From contig JADGOZ010000059.1 of NCBI GenBank assembly GCA_017882705.1, forward strand, positions 21,776 to 85,775: a DNA stretch of 64,000 bases, read 5' to 3'. This DNA is from Candidatus Nanopelagicales bacterium (GTDB lineage Bacteria; Actinomycetota; Actinomycetes; S36-B12; CAIYMF01). Each line of letters opens with the position of its first letter. Position 1 is the first letter of the stretch. Positions 51,403-61,700 of this stretch are shown in pieces. The notes under the pieces are model-generated. The model saw only the letters and a list, made by a program, of their open reading frames with translations, had not been told where the DNA came from and did no database searches. Both the position numbers and the translations under genes were made by a program.

Positions 51403-52431
51403 TCAGGCGGTGCGACGACGGGTCGCCCTGGGCGTCGACGATGCCTTCGCCGACGTCGCCACCTTCTTCGCCGCCGGGGCGCTCGTGGTCGTCTTCACCG
51501 CCCGGGTGGGCGCCGCCGCCTTCTTGGCCGGCGGCTTCGTCGTGGTCTTCGCGACCGTCCTGGTCGGCGTGGTCGTCGCCTTGGGCGTCGCGGCCGCCTT
51601 CCGGCGCGGTGGGGCAGCAGGGCCTGCGGCAGCGGTTGCCGATCTCGTGGACTGGTTTCGCTCGACCGACTCCCGCAGCGCGGCCATCAGGTCGAGGACG
51701 ATGCCGTCGCCGCCGTCGCCGGTGTCCGACTGCGCGACCGGCGTCATTCCCATGCCTCCGGCGAGCTTGCGGTCGATGACGGCCAGCAACGCCTCGCGGT
51801 ACTCGTCGCGGAACTCGTTCGGGTCGAAGTCGGTGGCCAGGCTGTCGATCAGCGAGGACGCCATGCTGAGCTCCTGCGGGCGGATCTCGACGTCGTCGGA
51901 GAGGACGTCGAAGTCAGCCTTGCGGACCTCGTCGGGCCACAGCATCGTCTGCAGCACCAGCACGTCGTCGCGCACGCGGAGCGCACCGAGCTGGGTCTTG
52001 TAGCGCAGCACGACTCGCACGATCGCGGTGCGGTCCGTCGCCGCGAGCGCCTCGCGGAGGAGCACGTAGGGCTTGAGCGCCCGCGGCTCCGGCTCGAGGT
52101 AGTAGCTCCGGTCGAGCAGGAGCGGGTCGACTTGGTCGCTGGGCACGAACTCGACGACCTCGATCTCTCGCATGCCCGGCACGGGCAGGCCCTCGAAGTC
52201 GGATTCCTCCATGACCACGACCTGTCCGGTGTCGGACTCGTAGGCCTTCGCCAGCTCCTTGAACTCGATCGGCTTCCCGTCCACGGAGCAGGTGCGGAGC
52301 ATCTTCACCCGGCCACCGTCGGCCGCGTGCACCTGATGGAACTTGACGTCATGGTCCTCGGTCGCCGCGTAGAGCTTGATCGGCACGTTGACCAGGCCGA
52401 AGGCGACCGCGCCCTTCCACATCGCACGCAT
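51403..52431 (-). CDS. ku: Ku protein (non-homologous end joining)
   Basis: A ring-forming DNA end-binding protein that recruits LigD. 342 residues. MRAMWKGAVAFGLVNVPIKLY and the bridge region RTCSVDGKPIEFKELAKAYE match bacterial Ku, about 270 residues. The last 70 or so are a Lys/Ala/Thr/Pro tail, common in actinomycetes, that may aid DNA threading. GAGGAGAACGCC lies before ATG 52431. It is divergent from the LigD genes, with 72 bp between the starts. Confidence 0.95.
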   Translation of the reverse strand: MRAMWKGAVAFGLVNVPIKLYAATEDHDVKFHQVHAADGGRVKMLRTCSVDGKPIEFKELAKAYESDTGQVVVMEESDFEGLPVPGMREIEVVEFVPSDQVDPLLLDRSYYLEPEPRALKPYVLLREALAATDRTAIVRVVLRYKTQLGALRVRDDVLVLQTMLWPDEVRKADFDVLSDDVEIRPQELSMASSLIDSLATDFDPNEFRDEYREALLAVIDRKLAGGMGMTPVAQSDTGDGGDGIVLDLMAALRESVERNQSTRSATAAAGPAAPPRRKAAATPKATTTPTRTVAKTTTKPPAKKAAAPTRAVKTTTSAPAAKKVATSAKASSTPRATRRRTA

Positions 52432-52503
52432 GGCGTTCTCCTCACCGGTGGGGAAGTCACCTGACGGGGAGTGCACAGGTGCCGGATCACCCATGATGAA
52501 CCC

Positions 52504-53451
52504 GTGCAGCCGATGCTCGCTAGCCCCGGGGAGCTACCGGATCAGGCCGATCATTCGTGGTCGTACGAGGTCAAATGGGACGGAATGCGCGTGCTGGCGA
52601 CCCGGTCCCGCGGTCGGCTCCGGCTCACCGCACGCTCGGGCTCCGACGCCACGAGCCGTTTCCCGGAGCTCGTCGAGGCGGCCCCGGAGCGCCTCCCCGA
52701 AGGCTCGATCCTCGACGGCGAGGTGGTGATGCTCGACGGCGCGGGCAAGCCCTCGTTCGCACTCCTCGCACCACGGATCCAGCGGGCGCGACCCGCGTCG
52801 ACGGTCGTGAGACCGGTCGCCTACGTCGCCTTCGACCTGCTGCGGCTCGGCTCCGACGACGTCGTGGACCGGACCTACGACGACCGCCGTCGCCTGCTCC
52901 GCGAGGCCGTCGACGACAACCCGCGCGTCACGGTGCCGGGCAGCTTCGAGGACGGCGTGGCGCTGGTCGCGAGCACGCTGAGCGAAGGACTCGAGGGCGT
53001 CGTGGCGAAACGACACCGTTCGGTCTACCGGCCCGGTGTGCGCAGCCCGGACTGGATCAAGGTGCCGAACAGGCGCACGCGCTCCGTCGTGATCGGTGGC
53101 TGGAAGTCGCGTGCGGACTCGCCGGCACGGCTGGCATCGCTGCTCGTCGGCACGCCGACCGACGACGGGCTGCTCCGCTACGACGGTGCGGTCGGCTCGG
53201 GCCTGTCGGACTCGGAGAGCCGTACGGTGCTCGACGTGCTGCGCGACATCACCAGCGCCACCACCCCGTTCCACGGCTACCCCGCTCCGGAACCGGCACG
53301 TCGTGACGTGCTGACGTGGGTCGAGCCCCTTCTCGTCGTGGACGTGGAGCACCTCGGACGCTCCGCGAACGGCCTGCTGCGCCAACCGACGGTCGCGCGG
53401 CTGCGACCGGACCTGTCCTACCGCGACGTGGTCGAGGGCGAGGGTGCGTGA
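52504..53451 (+). CDS. ATP-dependent DNA ligase, LigD ligase-domain type
   Basis: 315 residues from GTG 52504. The nucleotidyl-transfer motif YEVKWDGMR has the AMP-accepting K24; DGEVVML and EGLEGVVAKR are motifs III and IV, WIKV near motif V. A C-terminal OB-fold follows. There is no polymerase or phosphoesterase domain: those activities are encoded separately. Overlaps the next gene by one base (TGATG). Works with Ku in end joining. Confidence 0.93.
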   Translation: MQPMLASPGELPDQADHSWSYEVKWDGMRVLATRSRGRLRLTARSGSDATSRFPELVEAAPERLPEGSILDGEVVMLDGAGKPSFALLAPRIQRARPASTVVRPVAYVAFDLLRLGSDDVVDRTYDDRRRLLREAVDDNPRVTVPGSFEDGVALVASTLSEGLEGVVAKRHRSVYRPGVRSPDWIKVPNRRTRSVVIGGWKSRADSPARLASLLVGTPTDDGLLRYDGAVGSGLSDSESRTVLDVLRDITSATTPFHGYPAPEPARRDVLTWVEPLLVVDVEHLGRSANGLLRQPTVARLRPDLSYRDVVEGEGA

Positions 53452-54347
53452 TGGCGAGCAAGGACGACGGCGGGACCCTCGAGGTCGACGGTCGCGCGGT
53501 ACGCGTGACCAACCTGGACAAGGTCCTCTATCCGGCGACGGGCACGACGAAGAGCGACGTGCTGCACTACTACCTCGGGGTCGCGCCGCTGATCCTGCCG
53601 CTGCTCCAGGACCGCCCGGTGACCCGCAAGCGCTGGCCGGACGGAGTGGGCCACGACCCGTTCTTCGAGAAGAACCTGCCGCGCGGCACACCCGACTGGA
53701 TCCCGCGGACGACGCTGCACCACACGGGATCCCGGTCCGGCCGCGGCGCGCGCGACCTCGACTACCCGCTCGTCGAGGAGCGCGCGACGCTCGTGTGGCT
53801 CGCCCAGTCCGGCGCGCTCGAGCTGCACGCGCCGCAGTGGCGCACGGACCGACTGACCGGGGATCCGCGACCGCCGGACCGCCTCGTGGTCGACCTGGAC
53901 CCAGGCCCGCCCGCAGGGCTGGACGAGTGCAGGACTGTGGCGCTCGTCGCGCGCGACATGCTGCAGGGTCACGGACTCGACGCGTGGGCGGTCACGAGCG
54001 GATCGAAGGGCATGCAGCTCTACGCCGACCTGCCACCGCGGACGGAGCGCGGACGCGACGTCCTGGCGCGCGCCGGCTCCACGAGCGACTACGCGCGCAA
54101 CCTCGCCATCGCGCTCGAGCGGCAACTCCCCGACCTCGTCGTGTCCGCGATGGCCCGTGAGCTGCGACCCGGACGCGTCCTCGTCGACTGGAGCCAGAAC
54201 AACCCGGCGAAGACCACGATCGTGCCGTGGTCCCTGCGCGGACGGGAGCGGCCGACCGCCGCGACCCCGGTCACGTGGGACGACGTCGAGGCAGGGCGCC
54301 TCACCCAGCGGACCCTCGACGAGGCACTGACGCTCGCCGGAGCGTGA
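53451..54347 (+). CDS. LigD-type polymerase domain protein (NHEJ primase-polymerase)
   Basis: 298 residues. The AEP superfamily polymerase: [14 protein letters not shown] at the start, catalytic D148/D150 (VVDLDPG), SGSKGMQLY and [13 protein letters not shown], which holds a third Asp. It fills gaps at double-strand breaks. It is coupled to the ligase. No LigD phosphoesterase (3'-phosphatase) gene is present here. Confidence 0.93.
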
Positions 54348-56891: not shown

Positions 56892-57410
56892 ATGAACCCG
56901 AACCTGATGAGCCCGAAGCTTGCCGCACCCGCGATCGCTGCAGCCCTGGTGCTGCTCGGATCGACGGCCGCCTTCGCCTCCACGCACGTTCCGGCCGCCG
57001 CCTCCGGCGCGCCGACCGCGAGCGTGTCGGCCTCGGCCACCGGCTCCACCACGGCGGCGCCGGTGCTGCCGACCCCCGTCGTCACCCCGGTGCCCGTGGT
57101 GACCCCCGTCGTCGCCACCACCCCCGTCGTCGCCACCCCGGCCGTGACCGGGTCCGACGAGGCGAACGAGGCGGCCGAGGTGGCCGCGACGCCGGTCCCG
57201 ACCACGACCACGACGCCCGCGGTCGACCCGGCCGCAGCTCCCACCGGGATCTGTGACGGTGACGGCGACAGCAACCGCGGGACCGACCGCGTGAGTGCCT
57301 TCGGCCAGAACCAGAGCGCCAGCGCCTTCGGCCACCTGCAGGGTCGCCACGGCGGCGGCCACCTGCAGGGTCACGGCGGCGGCCACGGTCACGGCGGCTC
57401 GGGCCGCTAG
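56892..57410 (+). CDS. Secreted protein with Thr/Pro/Val repeats and His/Gly-rich tail
   Basis: 172 residues. Signal peptide PAIAAALVLLGSTAAFA, then a low-complexity region of repeated PVVTPV and VVATT units (residues 55-85), an acidic segment, DGDGDSN with possible cation ligands, and a C-terminal tail (GRHGGGHLQGHGGGHGHGG). The His/Gly tail suggests metal binding. AGAGGAGAACC lies before the ATG. A strong terminator follows. No family recognised. Confidence 0.75.
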   Translation: MNPNLMSPKLAAPAIAAALVLLGSTAAFASTHVPAAASGAPTASVSASATGSTTAAPVLPTPVVTPVPVVTPVVATTPVVATPAVTGSDEANEAAEVAATPVPTTTTTPAVDPAAAPTGICDGDGDSNRGTDRVSAFGQNQSASAFGHLQGRHGGGHLQGHGGGHGHGGSGR

Positions 57411-57432
57411 CAGCCCGGCACACCAGTCAGCA

Positions 57433-57470
57433 GACGACGCCCGTCCTCGTACCCGAGGGCGGGCGTCGTC
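57433..57470 (+). terminator. Strong hairpin after the His/Gly-tail gene
   Basis: GACGACGCCCG and CGGGCGTCGTC pair perfectly (11 bp), continued by CCTCG/CGAGG around a four-base loop. No T-run follows, as usual in high-GC actinomycetes. Confidence 0.75.
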
Positions 57471-57531
57471 CGTCCTGGCCGGCTCAGCACTCGACCGGGA
57501 ATGAGCTCGTCGAGGGTGACCGCGGTGGCCG

Positions 57532-59580
57532 TCACGTCCGGCGGCGCACCGCCTGTTCGGCCGCGACCTCCGCGTCGATGAGGCGCCAGGCGACCACGCG
57601 CCCGGTGGGGTTGCCGTTCTCGTCGTTGGTCGGACGCGCTGTGCCGGACACCCAGCGATGACCGCCCTGCGCGGTCCGGACCCGCGTCCGGAACCCGTCG
57701 CTCTCACCGGCACGGATCCTGGCTCGTTCCGCGTGGATCCTCGCGGCGTCGGTGGGTTCCGCGAGTTCCAGGACGTCGCGTCCGATCAGGCGGTCCGGCG
57801 CCCAGCCCAGAAGCGTCTCCACCGACGGGGAGACCCACTCGATGATGCCCGCGTCATCCAGACGCCACACGACATCGGCTGCGTTCTCGGCCAGAGCCTT
57901 GTACTGCTCCAGGGCCTTCGCCGCGAGCGTGCGGGCAACCACAAGCTCGGTGATGTCGCGCAACCCGACGACGAGCCCCGAGACGGCACCGTCGCTGCCG
58001 ATCGGGTGCACCGAGACCGACATCCAGCGCTCCTGTCCGTCCGCGGTGAGGAAGCGCAGATCCACCACGGCCGTGCCTCCGGTCGAGATCGCCGTGACCC
58101 GGACCTCCACGGCTGCCGGTACGTCGTCGGGATGGAGCAGGTCGTGCAGCCGGGTGCCGACCAGCGCGTCGGCGTCGTGGCCCAGCACCAGGGCGATCGA
58201 CCGGGAGACCCACGTGATGACGCCGTCGGCGTCGGTCTCGCAGACGACGTCCGAGGCGTGCTCCGCCAACGACCGGAAGCGGGCCTCGCCGTCGATGCGG
58301 TCCCCTGCGCGGGACGTCGAGGGGTCATGGGCACCCATCTGACGGCGTTCGCCGACATAGGGGGCGCCGGTACCGAGGGATCGGCGAGCCATCACCTCGA
58401 CGGATCCGGACCCGGGCAGTCCGACGGCCGCAGCCAGCTGTGCCTGGTCACCCCGTCCGCACGCGGCGCAGCCCGTCAGCGCCATCGCGCGGGAGCGGGT
58501 CAGGTCGTGCGGCAGGACGTCGAGGATGGCTTCGAACGTGACGATCGCCCACTCGAGCGGCTGCGACCGGGCTGCGAGCGTCCCCTCCAGCCAGCGTGCG
58601 TGCTCGGTGGCGACGGACGGGTCTGCCACCACGGTCGCCGACGCGACGATCCGCAGGGCGGAGTCGATCCGCTCCCTCGCGGCCACTCGCGCCTGGTCCG
58701 TCGCGACCAGGGCCGGCAGCCGGCGGGCCGCGGACCTGACGGCGGCCAGCACGAGGTCGTGGTGCTCCCGGCCGAGCACGTCGAGCTCACGGGCGGCCTC
58801 GGCATCGACCGCGGGCTCTCGGAGCGCACGTCGCGGGCCGTCGTTGACCATGAGGACCCGGTCCGCGCCCACGGTGAAGTCCGATGCCCACTGGTCCGCG
58901 CCGAGAGGCCAGCTCCAACGGCCCTCAGCGCCGAACCCCCGCCCCCCGCACACGACCGTCATCCCTCGCGATCTCAGCAGTCTGATGCTCCGCCACGCAC
59001 CCGCGAGGTTCATCGGTGCGGTGCAGGCCATGACGACGACAGACGTGCCGTCGTCGAGCAGGTGCTCCACCAGATCCTCGGCCGGGACGGACGGGCCGAC
59101 GAAGGTCACCCGGACCCCGCGCAGGCGCAGCACGGCCGCGGCCATGAGGGCGGGCAGGGTGTGCCACTCACCGTCGGCACAGACGACGACAGCCCGACCT
59201 CGGGAGCCAGGCACGGGGGCGTCCTGGGCGCGCAGGGCCTCGTGGGTCAGGACCTCCAGCACCGACTCGGTGATGGCGGTCGCGATGTGTTCCCCCGAGA
59301 TGGACCAGCTGTCCTGCTCCCATGCGTCACCGACCTGGGCCTGGGAGCGGGCGAGCACGTCGCCGATGATGCGTTCGGCGGACGCACCACGTACGAGCAG
59401 CCCGAGCGCGGTCGTCGTCGCGACGGAGCGCTCGCCGCTTCGCAGCGCATCGAAGTACCGGCTCGCGGCCGCGGACCAGTCCATCGCGCTGAGCACGGTG
59501 GTACCGCTCCCACCGGGCGACTGGGCGAGATCCGCGGTCCGCCGGTCCCCTGGAGGCGACTGGTCGAGGTTCGGGGTCAT
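57532..59580 (-). CDS. Cobalamin-binding photoreceptor-like sensor with two PAS domains
   Basis: 682 residues. Residues about 45-115 form a helical cap with W87, E97 and H98 (W-x9-E-H), the motif that defines adenosylcobalamin photoreceptors of the CarH type. The B12-binding Rossmann domain (about 128-250) has E138-x-H140 as the lower axial ligand motif; the usual Gly three residues after His is Pro. A helical middle (260-365) follows, then PAS1 (about 433-550) and PAS2 (about 557-675). No HTH, kinase or cyclase domain is present, so output is unknown. The ATG 59580 follows GGACAGGA; an upstream TTG is unlikely. It may relay light or redox by protein contact. Confidence 0.8.
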   Translation of the reverse strand: MTPNLDQSPPGDRRTADLAQSPGGSGTTVLSAMDWSAAASRYFDALRSGERSVATTTALGLLVRGASAERIIGDVLARSQAQVGDAWEQDSWSISGEHIATAITESVLEVLTHEALRAQDAPVPGSRGRAVVVCADGEWHTLPALMAAAVLRLRGVRVTFVGPSVPAEDLVEHLLDDGTSVVVMACTAPMNLAGAWRSIRLLRSRGMTVVCGGRGFGAEGRWSWPLGADQWASDFTVGADRVLMVNDGPRRALREPAVDAEAARELDVLGREHHDLVLAAVRSAARRLPALVATDQARVAARERIDSALRIVASATVVADPSVATEHARWLEGTLAARSQPLEWAIVTFEAILDVLPHDLTRSRAMALTGCAACGRGDQAQLAAAVGLPGSGSVEVMARRSLGTGAPYVGERRQMGAHDPSTSRAGDRIDGEARFRSLAEHASDVVCETDADGVITWVSRSIALVLGHDADALVGTRLHDLLHPDDVPAAVEVRVTAISTGGTAVVDLRFLTADGQERWMSVSVHPIGSDGAVSGLVVGLRDITELVVARTLAAKALEQYKALAENAADVVWRLDDAGIIEWVSPSVETLLGWAPDRLIGRDVLELAEPTDAARIHAERARIRAGESDGFRTRVRTAQGGHRWVSGTARPTNDENGNPTGRVVAWRLIDAEVAAEQAVRRRT

Positions 59581-59912
59581 CAGAATCCTGTCCGAGGTCA
59601 ACTACCCCTGTGGCACAGTGCCGGAGCGGATCGTTCAGGAGCTAGGTCGCTGAAGAATGCGCATCGCTCGGTCGCGTGCCCGAGAGAGTAGGGCAGTCGA
59701 CGCGGGCCGTCGAGGCTGCACGCACATGAGCGAACACCTCCAGCGCCGTCATGGGTGCACAACAGCGGGTGAGCACCCCCCGGACAGGTTGGGCCGGGCG
59801 GAGCGGCCACGACCAGGGCGTGACGTTCGCGGACAGGCGTGCCTGGCATGATCGGGTCGTCAGGGACTGCTCCGATTCGCGGAGCGCTACGTGGGCGGAT
59901 CCCGGACGTGCC
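59581..59912. other. Intergenic region upstream of tRNA-Lys
   Basis: 332 bp; nothing coding is seen. It must hold the leftward promoter of the sensor gene and the rightward promoter of tRNA-Lys. No repeats from families A or B are found. Confidence 0.6.
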
Positions 59913-59985
59913 GGGCCGTTAGCTCAACCGGCAGAGCAGCGGACTTTTAATCCGCGGGTTCTGGGTTCGATCCCCAGGCGGCCCA
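59913..59985 (+). tRNA. tRNA-Lys (anticodon UUU)
   Basis: GGGCCGT at the 5' end pairs with GCGGCCC (59978-59984). The anticodon stem GCGGA/TCCGC encloses the loop CTTTTAA, giving TTT in DNA. The T-loop is TTCGATC. The 3' CCA is not encoded in full. The tRNA is the attachment site of the adjacent decayed element: the integrase remnant's last codons are read from its opposite strand. Confidence 0.97.
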
Positions 59986-60250
59986 CCCCGTGACCTGCAT
60001 CGATACCCGATGCGCCAGTGTCACCAGGGCGATTTGGGGCCGACCTGGGTTCATTCTGGGTTCGGCGGTCTGTGCGCGGTACCAGCGCCGCTGCGGCGAT
60101 GGCTGCCTGCTGGCCGACCCCTTCGAGCAGGTGCGAGTAGGTGTCCGACGTGATCGCGAGTGAGCTGTGTCCCAGCCGCTTGCTCACGACGGCCATGGGG
60201 ACGCCGGCGGCGGCGGAGAGCTCGCGGAAGCGTTTGGTGACGGTCTGCTC
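59924..60250 (-). pseudogene. Tyrosine recombinase (integrase) C-terminal remnant
   Basis: The frame reads VTKRFRELSAAAGVP, MAVVSKRLGHSSLAITSDTY and on, the last third of a phage/ICE integrase. It keeps the GH of the LGHSS motif and the catalytic Tyr (DTYSH), but the HDLRH segment between two AGVP-like strings is missing, so the HxxR pair is lost. It is joined in frame to relaxase sequence upstream. The last 20 residues (LGIEPRTRGLKVRCSAG) are the tRNA-Lys antisense strand, the classic read-through at a tRNA attachment site. Confidence 0.8.
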
Positions 60251-61700
60251 ACGATCGAGACCGGCACGGGCCAGGACGATGCCGATGTCCGCGGTCGCGC
60301 CCTGCGCACCGTCGATGGTCGCGGCCCACCCGTACTCGGCGTTCCGGGCCAGGTAGGCGTCCGGGAGGGTAAGGGTGCCGCGACCGCTGAGGTCCGCCAC
60401 GACGAGCCCACCGGTGTCGCTGGCGGTCAGGACGCGGAACCGGTCGTCGTGGCGCAGGGTCTCGCCCCCGATGTGGGTACGGCTGTTGTTCTTCTTCGCG
60501 AGCAGAACGTCCCCGGCGCGCCACGACCGATGCTCGATCTGGGCGCGGGTCGACGCCGACCGGGTCGCGATGATGGCCAGGTCGGGGCCGGTGACAGCAC
60601 CGGTGGCGATCGCGACGGCCCGGGCGCGGGCGTTGAGCGCGTTCACGTCCGTCCACGCCCGCGCCAGCATCAACGCATCAGCGCCCTTGATGGTGGCGTG
60701 GTGCCAGCGGTCGAAGACCGCGTCCGCCGCGTCCTCACTCGACGCGCCGGGGTGGACCCGACCCCGCTCCGCGTAGGTCGCGAGGACGCCCGGGTCACCG
60801 GCACGCAGCGGGAGGGTGGCGGCGGCCTCCCACTTGTGGGTGAACCGGTGCAGCTCGGTGAGCTCCACGACCTGACGGCCGAGCTCGTGGGTGAGGTGTT
60901 CGAACATGCCCCGGGGGCGTTGACCGCACCGATCTGCCCGGGGTCCCCGACCAGGACCAGACGGGCCCGGTGTCGGGTGGCGTAGGCGGTGAGGGCGTCG
61001 AGATCCGAGGTGGTCAGCATCGAGGCATCGTCGACCAGGATCACCTCCCGGCGCATGTACCCCGGATCGGCCGGGACCTTCACCGGGGTGGGGTCCGTCG
61101 CCTCGGTGAGCAGCCAGCGGGCCACGGTCTGCCCCGGCGCCCCGGTCGCGGCCGCGAGTTGGGCGGCGGCGCGCGCGGACGGGGCCAGCGCGATCACGTC
61201 CTTCCAGTCGTTGGCCCAGATCGTTGCGGCGGCGGCCAGGGTGGTGATCTTCCCCGCCCCGCCCCGGCCGGTGCGGTCATGACCGTGACCAGGTCCCGGG
61301 TCGCGACCAGGCGAACCACGGCCCGGCCCTGCTCGACGGAGAGCCCCGCCTCACCGGACAGCAGCGCGGCCACGAAATCCGGGCGCAACCGCTCTGGGGG
61401 CCGGAACCCGCCCGAGACGGCGCGCTCCAGGATCCGGGCCTCGGTGTCCACGAGCTCACGGGACGCGTAGCGGGCATCCGAGGCCCGCGCGGTCACCCCG
61501 GACGGGTCCGAGCCCAAGGCCACGGCGCCGGAGAGCCCGACCTGGGTGAGCGCGATGTCGGTGAGCTCTTCCCCACCCATGCCACCGCATCCGCCGCCGT
61601 CCTCAGGGTGGGGACTCCGGTCGTCGGGACCCTCGCCGCGACCGCGACGGTCAGGTCCGCGCGCGACCAGATCGCCTTGCGCCGCCCGACTATCCCTTAC
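60251..61700 (-). pseudogene. MobF/TraA-type relaxase-helicase fragment, frameshifted
   Basis: Translated in pieces, it gives the conjugative relaxase helicase half: IWSRADLTVAVAARVP, GLSVEQGRAVVRLVATRDLV, VMTAPAGAG, then KITTLAAAATIWANDWKDVI, VILVDDASMLTTSDLDALTAY, VLVGDPGQIGAVNAPG, and EYGWAATIDGAQGATADIGI. Reading frame breaks occur near 61575, near 61268 (a GGGGC duplication inside Walker A, before GKITT) and near 60912 (one G missing from a G-run). The relaxase N-terminus (three-His nuclease) is absent; homology stops near 61700, where the Fic promoter begins. Its 3' end is fused to the integrase remnant. Non-functional unless sequence errors explain all three breaks. Confidence 0.75.

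Follow-up and report, generated by a model that had tools for sequence, protein, structure and literature searches.

A predicted photocobilin joined to two PAS domains in a Candidatus Nanopelagicales genome

We analysed a window of 64,000 nucleotides from Candidatus Nanopelagicales bacterium (GenBank assembly GCA_017882705.1, contig JADGOZ010000059.1), which carries on its minus strand a gene for a 682-residue protein, labelled P0001, in which a B12-binding unit, a globin-type domain and two PAS domains follow one another. The open reading frame (ORF) starts at an ATG at position 59,580, with an alternative TTG seven codons upstream that would yield 689 residues. A plus-strand ORF of 677 residues (57658-59691) overlaps the gene, and the minus strand was taken as the coding one because the domain matches lie on it. 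By sequence and predicted structure, residues 32-381 belong to the photocobilins, a family described in 2024 from two proteins (PMC10979010), and the closest solved structures are light-responsive. We regard as evenly balanced the reading that P0001 is a photocobilin by its predicted fold which, followed by two PAS domains and no output domain, senses light with adenosylcobalamin (AdoCbl) alone and relays the signal by protein-protein contact.

Domains and residues of the sensor protein

Photocobilins are recognised firstly by a B12-binding helix bundle and Rossmann domain carrying the motifs W-x9-EH and E/D-x-H, all of which are present in P0001, where both Pfam matches (B12-binding_2 and B12-binding) exceed the curated cut-offs. 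An earlier note on this DNA had placed W87, E97, H98, E138, H140 and P143 in the protein and had pointed to them as residues typical of AdoCbl photoreceptors, and both statements hold. In addition, the four-part signature of light-responsive cobalamin domains given in PMC11796333 (GxxW, EH, GxxH and GxxxP) is complete, as G84-D-A-W87, E97-H98, G137-E-W-H140 and G162-P-S-V-P166.

The same note had called this a CarH-type module. That assignment was rejected because photocobilins match better and cover the whole sensor, as judged by phmmer and by the predicted structure: against PDB chains, phmmer aligned residues 40-362 with SasPcob, the standalone photocobilin of Saccharothrix syringae (PDB 8j2w, 8j2x), at an E-value of about 2e-42, far beyond chance. 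CarH, a MerR-B12 protein, has a DNA-binding domain and His132 but no globin, whereas P0001 has a globin and neither of the other two. Pfam found no MerR-type N-terminal DNA-binding domain, and there are only about 33 residues before the first helix. The position of His132 is taken by E88, and His is mostly missing from the relatives too; with this ligand replaced, P0001 should not form the bis-His light state of CarH. The proline that follows the axial histidine (P143), which had been read as a replacement of glycine that might change cobalamin affinity, turns out to be the usual residue: it recurs in 28 of the 30 rows of our tree and in 36 of 40 further relatives, and SasPcob, which was crystallised with AdoCbl, has it too.

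The second mark of the family, a globin (photoglobin) domain C-terminal to the B12 unit, was seen in the predicted structure. It corresponds to what had previously been passed over as a helical region, and PMC10979010 describes this helical globin as the second photocobilin domain. A difference that had gone unnoticed lies within it. In SasPcob, Asp270 contacts the bilin pyrroles and holds biliverdin (PMC10979010); here the equivalent residue is Arg304, placed 26 residues before the conserved globin Trp as in SasPcob, while SasPcob His137 is replaced by Asp. By that residue P0001 does not fit the dual-chromophore SasPcob type. AbDPcob, a photocobilin-diguanylate cyclase fusion (sensor part, PDB 8j2y), likewise lacks the Asp, so that the Asp marks the dual-chromophore subtype rather than the family; it has His at this position, with weak binding and a biliverdin occupancy of about 20% (PMC10979010). 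Because the residue that would hold the second pigment is replaced, the bilin site of P0001 is probably empty or weak, and light sensing with B12 alone is likely. A haem oxygenase (PF01126) was not matched in the genome, which is 91% complete, other bilin-making enzymes not having been searched for.

The fusion to two PAS domains, also proposed before, is confirmed by Pfam. No LOV-type cysteine motif was seen by eye in these PAS domains. Nine Pfam families were listed for the protein at E-values up to 1, none of them a kinase, a cyclase or a DNA-binding family, and a GGDEF domain is absent from the 682 residues by Pfam, the 3' flank having been inspected as well. With no output domain in sight, signalling through protein partners is probable, as had been suggested.

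Features of the sensor gene and its 3' flank (coordinates in the window)
Feature	Coordinates	Strand	Basis
Whole gene: B12-binding / globin / PAS-PAS	57532..59580	-	ORF and Pfam
Four-helix cap, B12-binding_2, residues 41-111	59248..59460	-	Pfam (6e-8), predicted structure
W87-x9-E97-H98, predicted adenosyl pocket and dimer contact (W61, E71, H72 of SasPcob)	59287..59322	-	Alignment; roles from PMC10979010
Rossmann B12-binding domain, residues 128-222	58915..59199	-	Pfam B12-binding (1.9e-11)
E138-W139-H140, H140 the predicted lower cobalt ligand (H108 of SasPcob)	59161..59169	-	Alignment
G162-P-S-V-P166, GxxxP element	59083..59097	-	Sequence; signature from PMC11796333
Globin-type (photoglobin) domain, about residues 258-385	58426..58809	-	Predicted structure
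Arg304 in place of biliverdin-contact Asp270 of SasPcob	58669..58671	-	Alignment
Trp330, equivalent to SasPcob Trp296	58591..58593	-	Alignment
Probably flexible linker from globin to PAS 1, about residues 386-433	58282..58425	-	AlphaFold2 model, low confidence (pLDDT mostly <50)
PAS domain 1, residues 434-543	57952..58281	-	Pfam
PAS domain 2, about residues 558-668 (PAS_8 from 558, PAS_3 583-659)	57577..57909	-	Pfam
C-terminal helix and stop	57532..57573	-	Ends about 2 residues short of the GGDEF start in own-genome PAS-GGDEF proteins
Strong hairpin, possible terminator, between sensor gene and convergent gene	57431..57472	-	z -2.9; 2 of 200 shuffles as stable

Relatives of the sensor and its fusion partners

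Protein database searches scored only those candidates sharing most words with the query, 7,994 for the sensor and 7,991 for the profile. Among the former, 12 relatives (P0002-P0013) are 57-60% identical over the sensor, none of them with PAS, and the sole sequence of the photocobilin-PAS-PAS form was P0001 itself. The profile search returned 24 proteins, none with PAS; it also missed P0001, and its silence on PAS fusions is therefore weak evidence. Of 40 photocobilin ORFs from class and phylum genomes, 39 end no more than 56 residues beyond the globin, the exception (L089, genome G792) being a photocobilin-GAF-ANTAR protein, which likewise carries a C-terminal module but ends in an RNA-binding ANTAR output where P0001 has PAS. 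Neither a second PAS fusion nor a photocobilin-PAS-GGDEF relative was found in the protein database, profile, class or phylum genome searches. The sensor is patchily distributed: matches came from 4 of 166 order-level genomes and 20 of 394 of the class (E-values up to 1e-40) and from 20 of 396 of the phylum (up to 1e-25), counts that all include the own genome. With the whole protein as query across 17 genomes of the family, the sensor part was matched only in the own genome and in G007, the others matching in PAS only; plasmid records gave five partial matches, none covering 80% of the query. One relative from a contig scan of genomes (38%) looks frame-broken and was not used.

In the 30-row tree, P0001 and 17 relatives form one clade with support of 100/100. 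The Asp270 position is Arg in 14, Met in three and Thr in one of these 18 rows, but Asp in 11 of the other 12, AbPcob having His; of the 40 further ORFs, 36 have Asp, and Glu, Thr, Ala and His occur once apiece. Fourteen of the 17 clade-mates (P0002-P0013, P0069 and P0070, from metagenomic and genomic sources) have 143-179 residues N-terminal to the sensor and end after the globin, whereas P0001 has PAS-PAS instead and, by Pfam, no STAS domain. STAS is among the precomputed domains of ten of the 14, and P0006, which is not one of these ten, reaches 20.9 bits for STAS_2, below the cut-off of 29.2. The three clade-mates without the N-terminal part (P0068, P0071 and P0072) may be truncated. P0001 branches outside its 17 mates with moderate support (93/76), so that a loss of STAS and a separate gain of PAS are not distinguishable; long outgroup branches also meet in this tree. 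As an observation of its own, the STAS-type B12-globin clade (P0002-P0013, P0068-P0072), with Arg, Met or Thr at the Asp position throughout, is a possible bilin-blind branch of the photocobilins.

The earlier note had suggested an undescribed architecture. The family itself was already known; as far as the searches reached, it is the combination of photocobilin and PAS-PAS without an output domain that is new. PAS is not mentioned in the main text of PMC10979010 or PMC11796333, and the latter labels outputs such as ANTAR and GAF in its legend to Fig. 9, but neither PAS nor STAS; an earlier mention of such a fusion may nevertheless exist elsewhere. SasPcob has no PAS domains, the C-terminal module of AbDPcob is a catalytic GGDEF where P0001 has PAS-PAS and then nothing, and in AerR-CrtJ (with which we group AppA-PpsR2) the PAS domains lie on the partner rather than in the same chain as the sensor.

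Possible mechanism and partners

By homology to SasPcob, AdoCbl lodged between W87 and H140 would keep the protein in a head-to-tail dimer in the dark. On exposure to green or blue light the Co-C bond would, as in homologues, be cleaved and the adenosyl group lost, with a shift of the E97-H98 helix and a loosening of the dimer. The bilin site is probably empty or weak. The change would reach the PAS pair through the globin and the flexible linker, again as homologues suggest. Since the protein carries no catalytic domain, we infer that the PAS pair would work in trans and that its most likely targets are PAS-GGDEF(-EAL) cyclic-di-GMP enzymes.

Two lines of evidence bear on these targets. The genome holds 22 GGDEF matches and seven matches to the PAS pair, of which the five scanned are PAS-GGDEF proteins, two of them with EAL; a sixth, on C103, immediately precedes a GGDEF match in the same frame, as judged by coordinates, and the seventh (L008, a 103-residue frame with stops) was left out of domain scans. 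Among 54 database relatives of the PAS pair, tallied from precomputed domain accessions with 7,991 candidates scored, 21 have GGDEF, five HD-GYP-type, one SpoIIE and two other regulator domains. In the genomes, we surveyed 42 loci related to the sensor: those of G007, G113 and G091, 17 at class level and 22 at phylum level, the latter with a view limited to 1.5 kb around the match. Immediately upstream, in the same orientation, stands a gene for SpoIIE at 26 of them, for GGDEF at seven and for neither at nine (one at a contig start). The hidden Markov models used were built partly from the class loci and from L029 and L030, which match by construction, and Pfam confirms SpoIIE in those 17 and GGDEF in those two. 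In G007, a genome of the same genus, the start of a standalone photocobilin gene lies within the overlap with a gene for a 1675-residue CheB-CheR-PAS-GGDEF-EAL protein (L029:1110-7192), and in G113 GGDEF stands upstream of the photocobilin gene, both confirmed by Pfam. These neighbourhoods agree with the trans-activation of a diguanylate cyclase and with the predicted interaction network of SasPcob, comprising STAS, SpoIIE and PP2C, in PMC10979010.

At the 26 SpoIIE loci (L051-L067, L077-L080, L082-L084, L093 and L097), SpoIIE stands directly upstream of a standalone photocobilin, often with STAS near, and such SpoIIE-photocobilin(-STAS) loci are candidate light-controlled partner-switch operons.

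Several results weigh against P0001 as a B12-only light sensor that signals through partners. The globin piece alone found no match among PDB sequences with phmmer at E-values up to 10, and the full-length AlphaFold2 model was poor (predicted local distance difference test, pLDDT, 56.5) and unfit for a fold search. Arg304 could bind a bilin carboxylate all the same, and the missing haem oxygenase counts for little in view of the incomplete genome and of the Asp-bearing genomes, of which G091 has one PF01126 match, G113 a fragment and G007 none. No partner gene adjoins the sensor gene, whose neighbours are an adenosine deaminase, an unknown small protein and tRNA-Lys, and an operon partner was accordingly rejected. 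Among the 54 relatives of the PAS pair, 14 have kinase domains and 11 list no output domain either, and SpoIIE is commoner than GGDEF beside photocobilins.

This last point favours a different reading, in which the B12 light sensor is as described but acts on a partner switch of the general stress response (SpoIIE / STAS / anti-sigma) instead of on cyclic-di-GMP, the PAS pair recruiting the cell's own SpoIIE phosphatase or STAS proteins. SpoIIE is directly upstream in 17/17 class loci outside the order (Pfam) and 9/22 phylum loci, with STAS genes within 4 kb in 12/17 and within 1.5 kb in 6/22, respectively; proteins of the sister clade carry a STAS-type domain fused N-terminally to the sensor, the SasPcob network points the same way, and the genome itself has one SpoIIE and one STAS/HATPase pair (HATPase named by eye). 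However, P0001 has no STAS domain and tblastn found no remnant of one in the window, the sole SpoIIE lies on another contig (C140), just one of the 54 proteins related to the PAS pair contains SpoIIE, and GGDEF is the upstream neighbour at G007 and G113, the closest photocobilin loci at which that neighbour could be read. We consider this switch somewhat unlikely. A fuller form of the GGDEF proposal, in which light frees the PAS pair to dock PAS-GGDEF(-EAL) enzymes and tune the cyclic-di-GMP network in trans, the clade having traded its second pigment for fused interaction domains, strikes us as rather unlikely in all its parts.

It is also conceivable, if improbable, that the gene is a degenerate or truncated photocobilin-PAS-PAS-GGDEF that lost its cyclase and is now a functionless or dominant-negative relic. 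Its ORF stops about two residues before the point at which GGDEF starts in three own-genome relatives, lined up by eye, and it was the sole member sequence in the protein database search. Yet no photoreceptor residue has been lost, the 682 codons are free of interruption, and the next 121 bases beyond the stop, read in each minus-strand frame, show no visible GGDEF remnant but a strong hairpin, although a consensus terminator with a T run was not found there; nor did the searches yield the ancestral arrangement. A frameshifted GGDEF or STAS remnant beside the gene was likewise looked for in the 3' flank frames and by tblastn of the window, and none was seen. Some B12-binding regulators act without light, and P0001 might instead report AdoCbl occupancy to its PAS partners, light use being proven by nothing in the sequence. 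The complete light-response signature, as given in PMC11796333, and the light-responsive nearest structures make such a sensor of B12 status quite improbable.

Two classes of partner thus appear plausible. We place PAS-GGDEF(-EAL) enzymes ahead, on account of what the PAS pair is related to and of the loci nearest in genus and order, and the SpoIIE/STAS switch behind them, in view of its greater overall frequency beside photocobilins and of the STAS-type fusion in the sister group; a relic that lost its cyclase ranks third. A natural B12 sensor apparently without a bilin channel, with interaction domains as its sole visible output, could separate the roles of the two chromophores and may give optogenetics a module for recruitment by green light. 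The survey of neighbouring genes, for its part, makes the targets of standalone photocobilins directly testable.

Flanking genes

Converging on the sensor gene is a gene at 56892-57410 for a 172-residue protein rich in Ala, Thr, Val and Pro, with a Gly/His-rich tail, a signal-peptide-like appearance by eye and no Pfam match. On the other side (59913-60907), what look like the remains of an integrated element adjoin the 3' side of tRNA-Lys: a minus-strand ORF that matches an AAA_30 helicase domain at its start and, further on, resembles the end of a tyrosine recombinase when inspected by eye. The sensor gene lies on the opposite side of the tRNA from this ORF. Further away, at 51403-54347, genes resembling Ku, an ATP-dependent ligase and a LigD-type polymerase stand side by side, as judged by eye, and form a probable non-homologous end-joining cluster.
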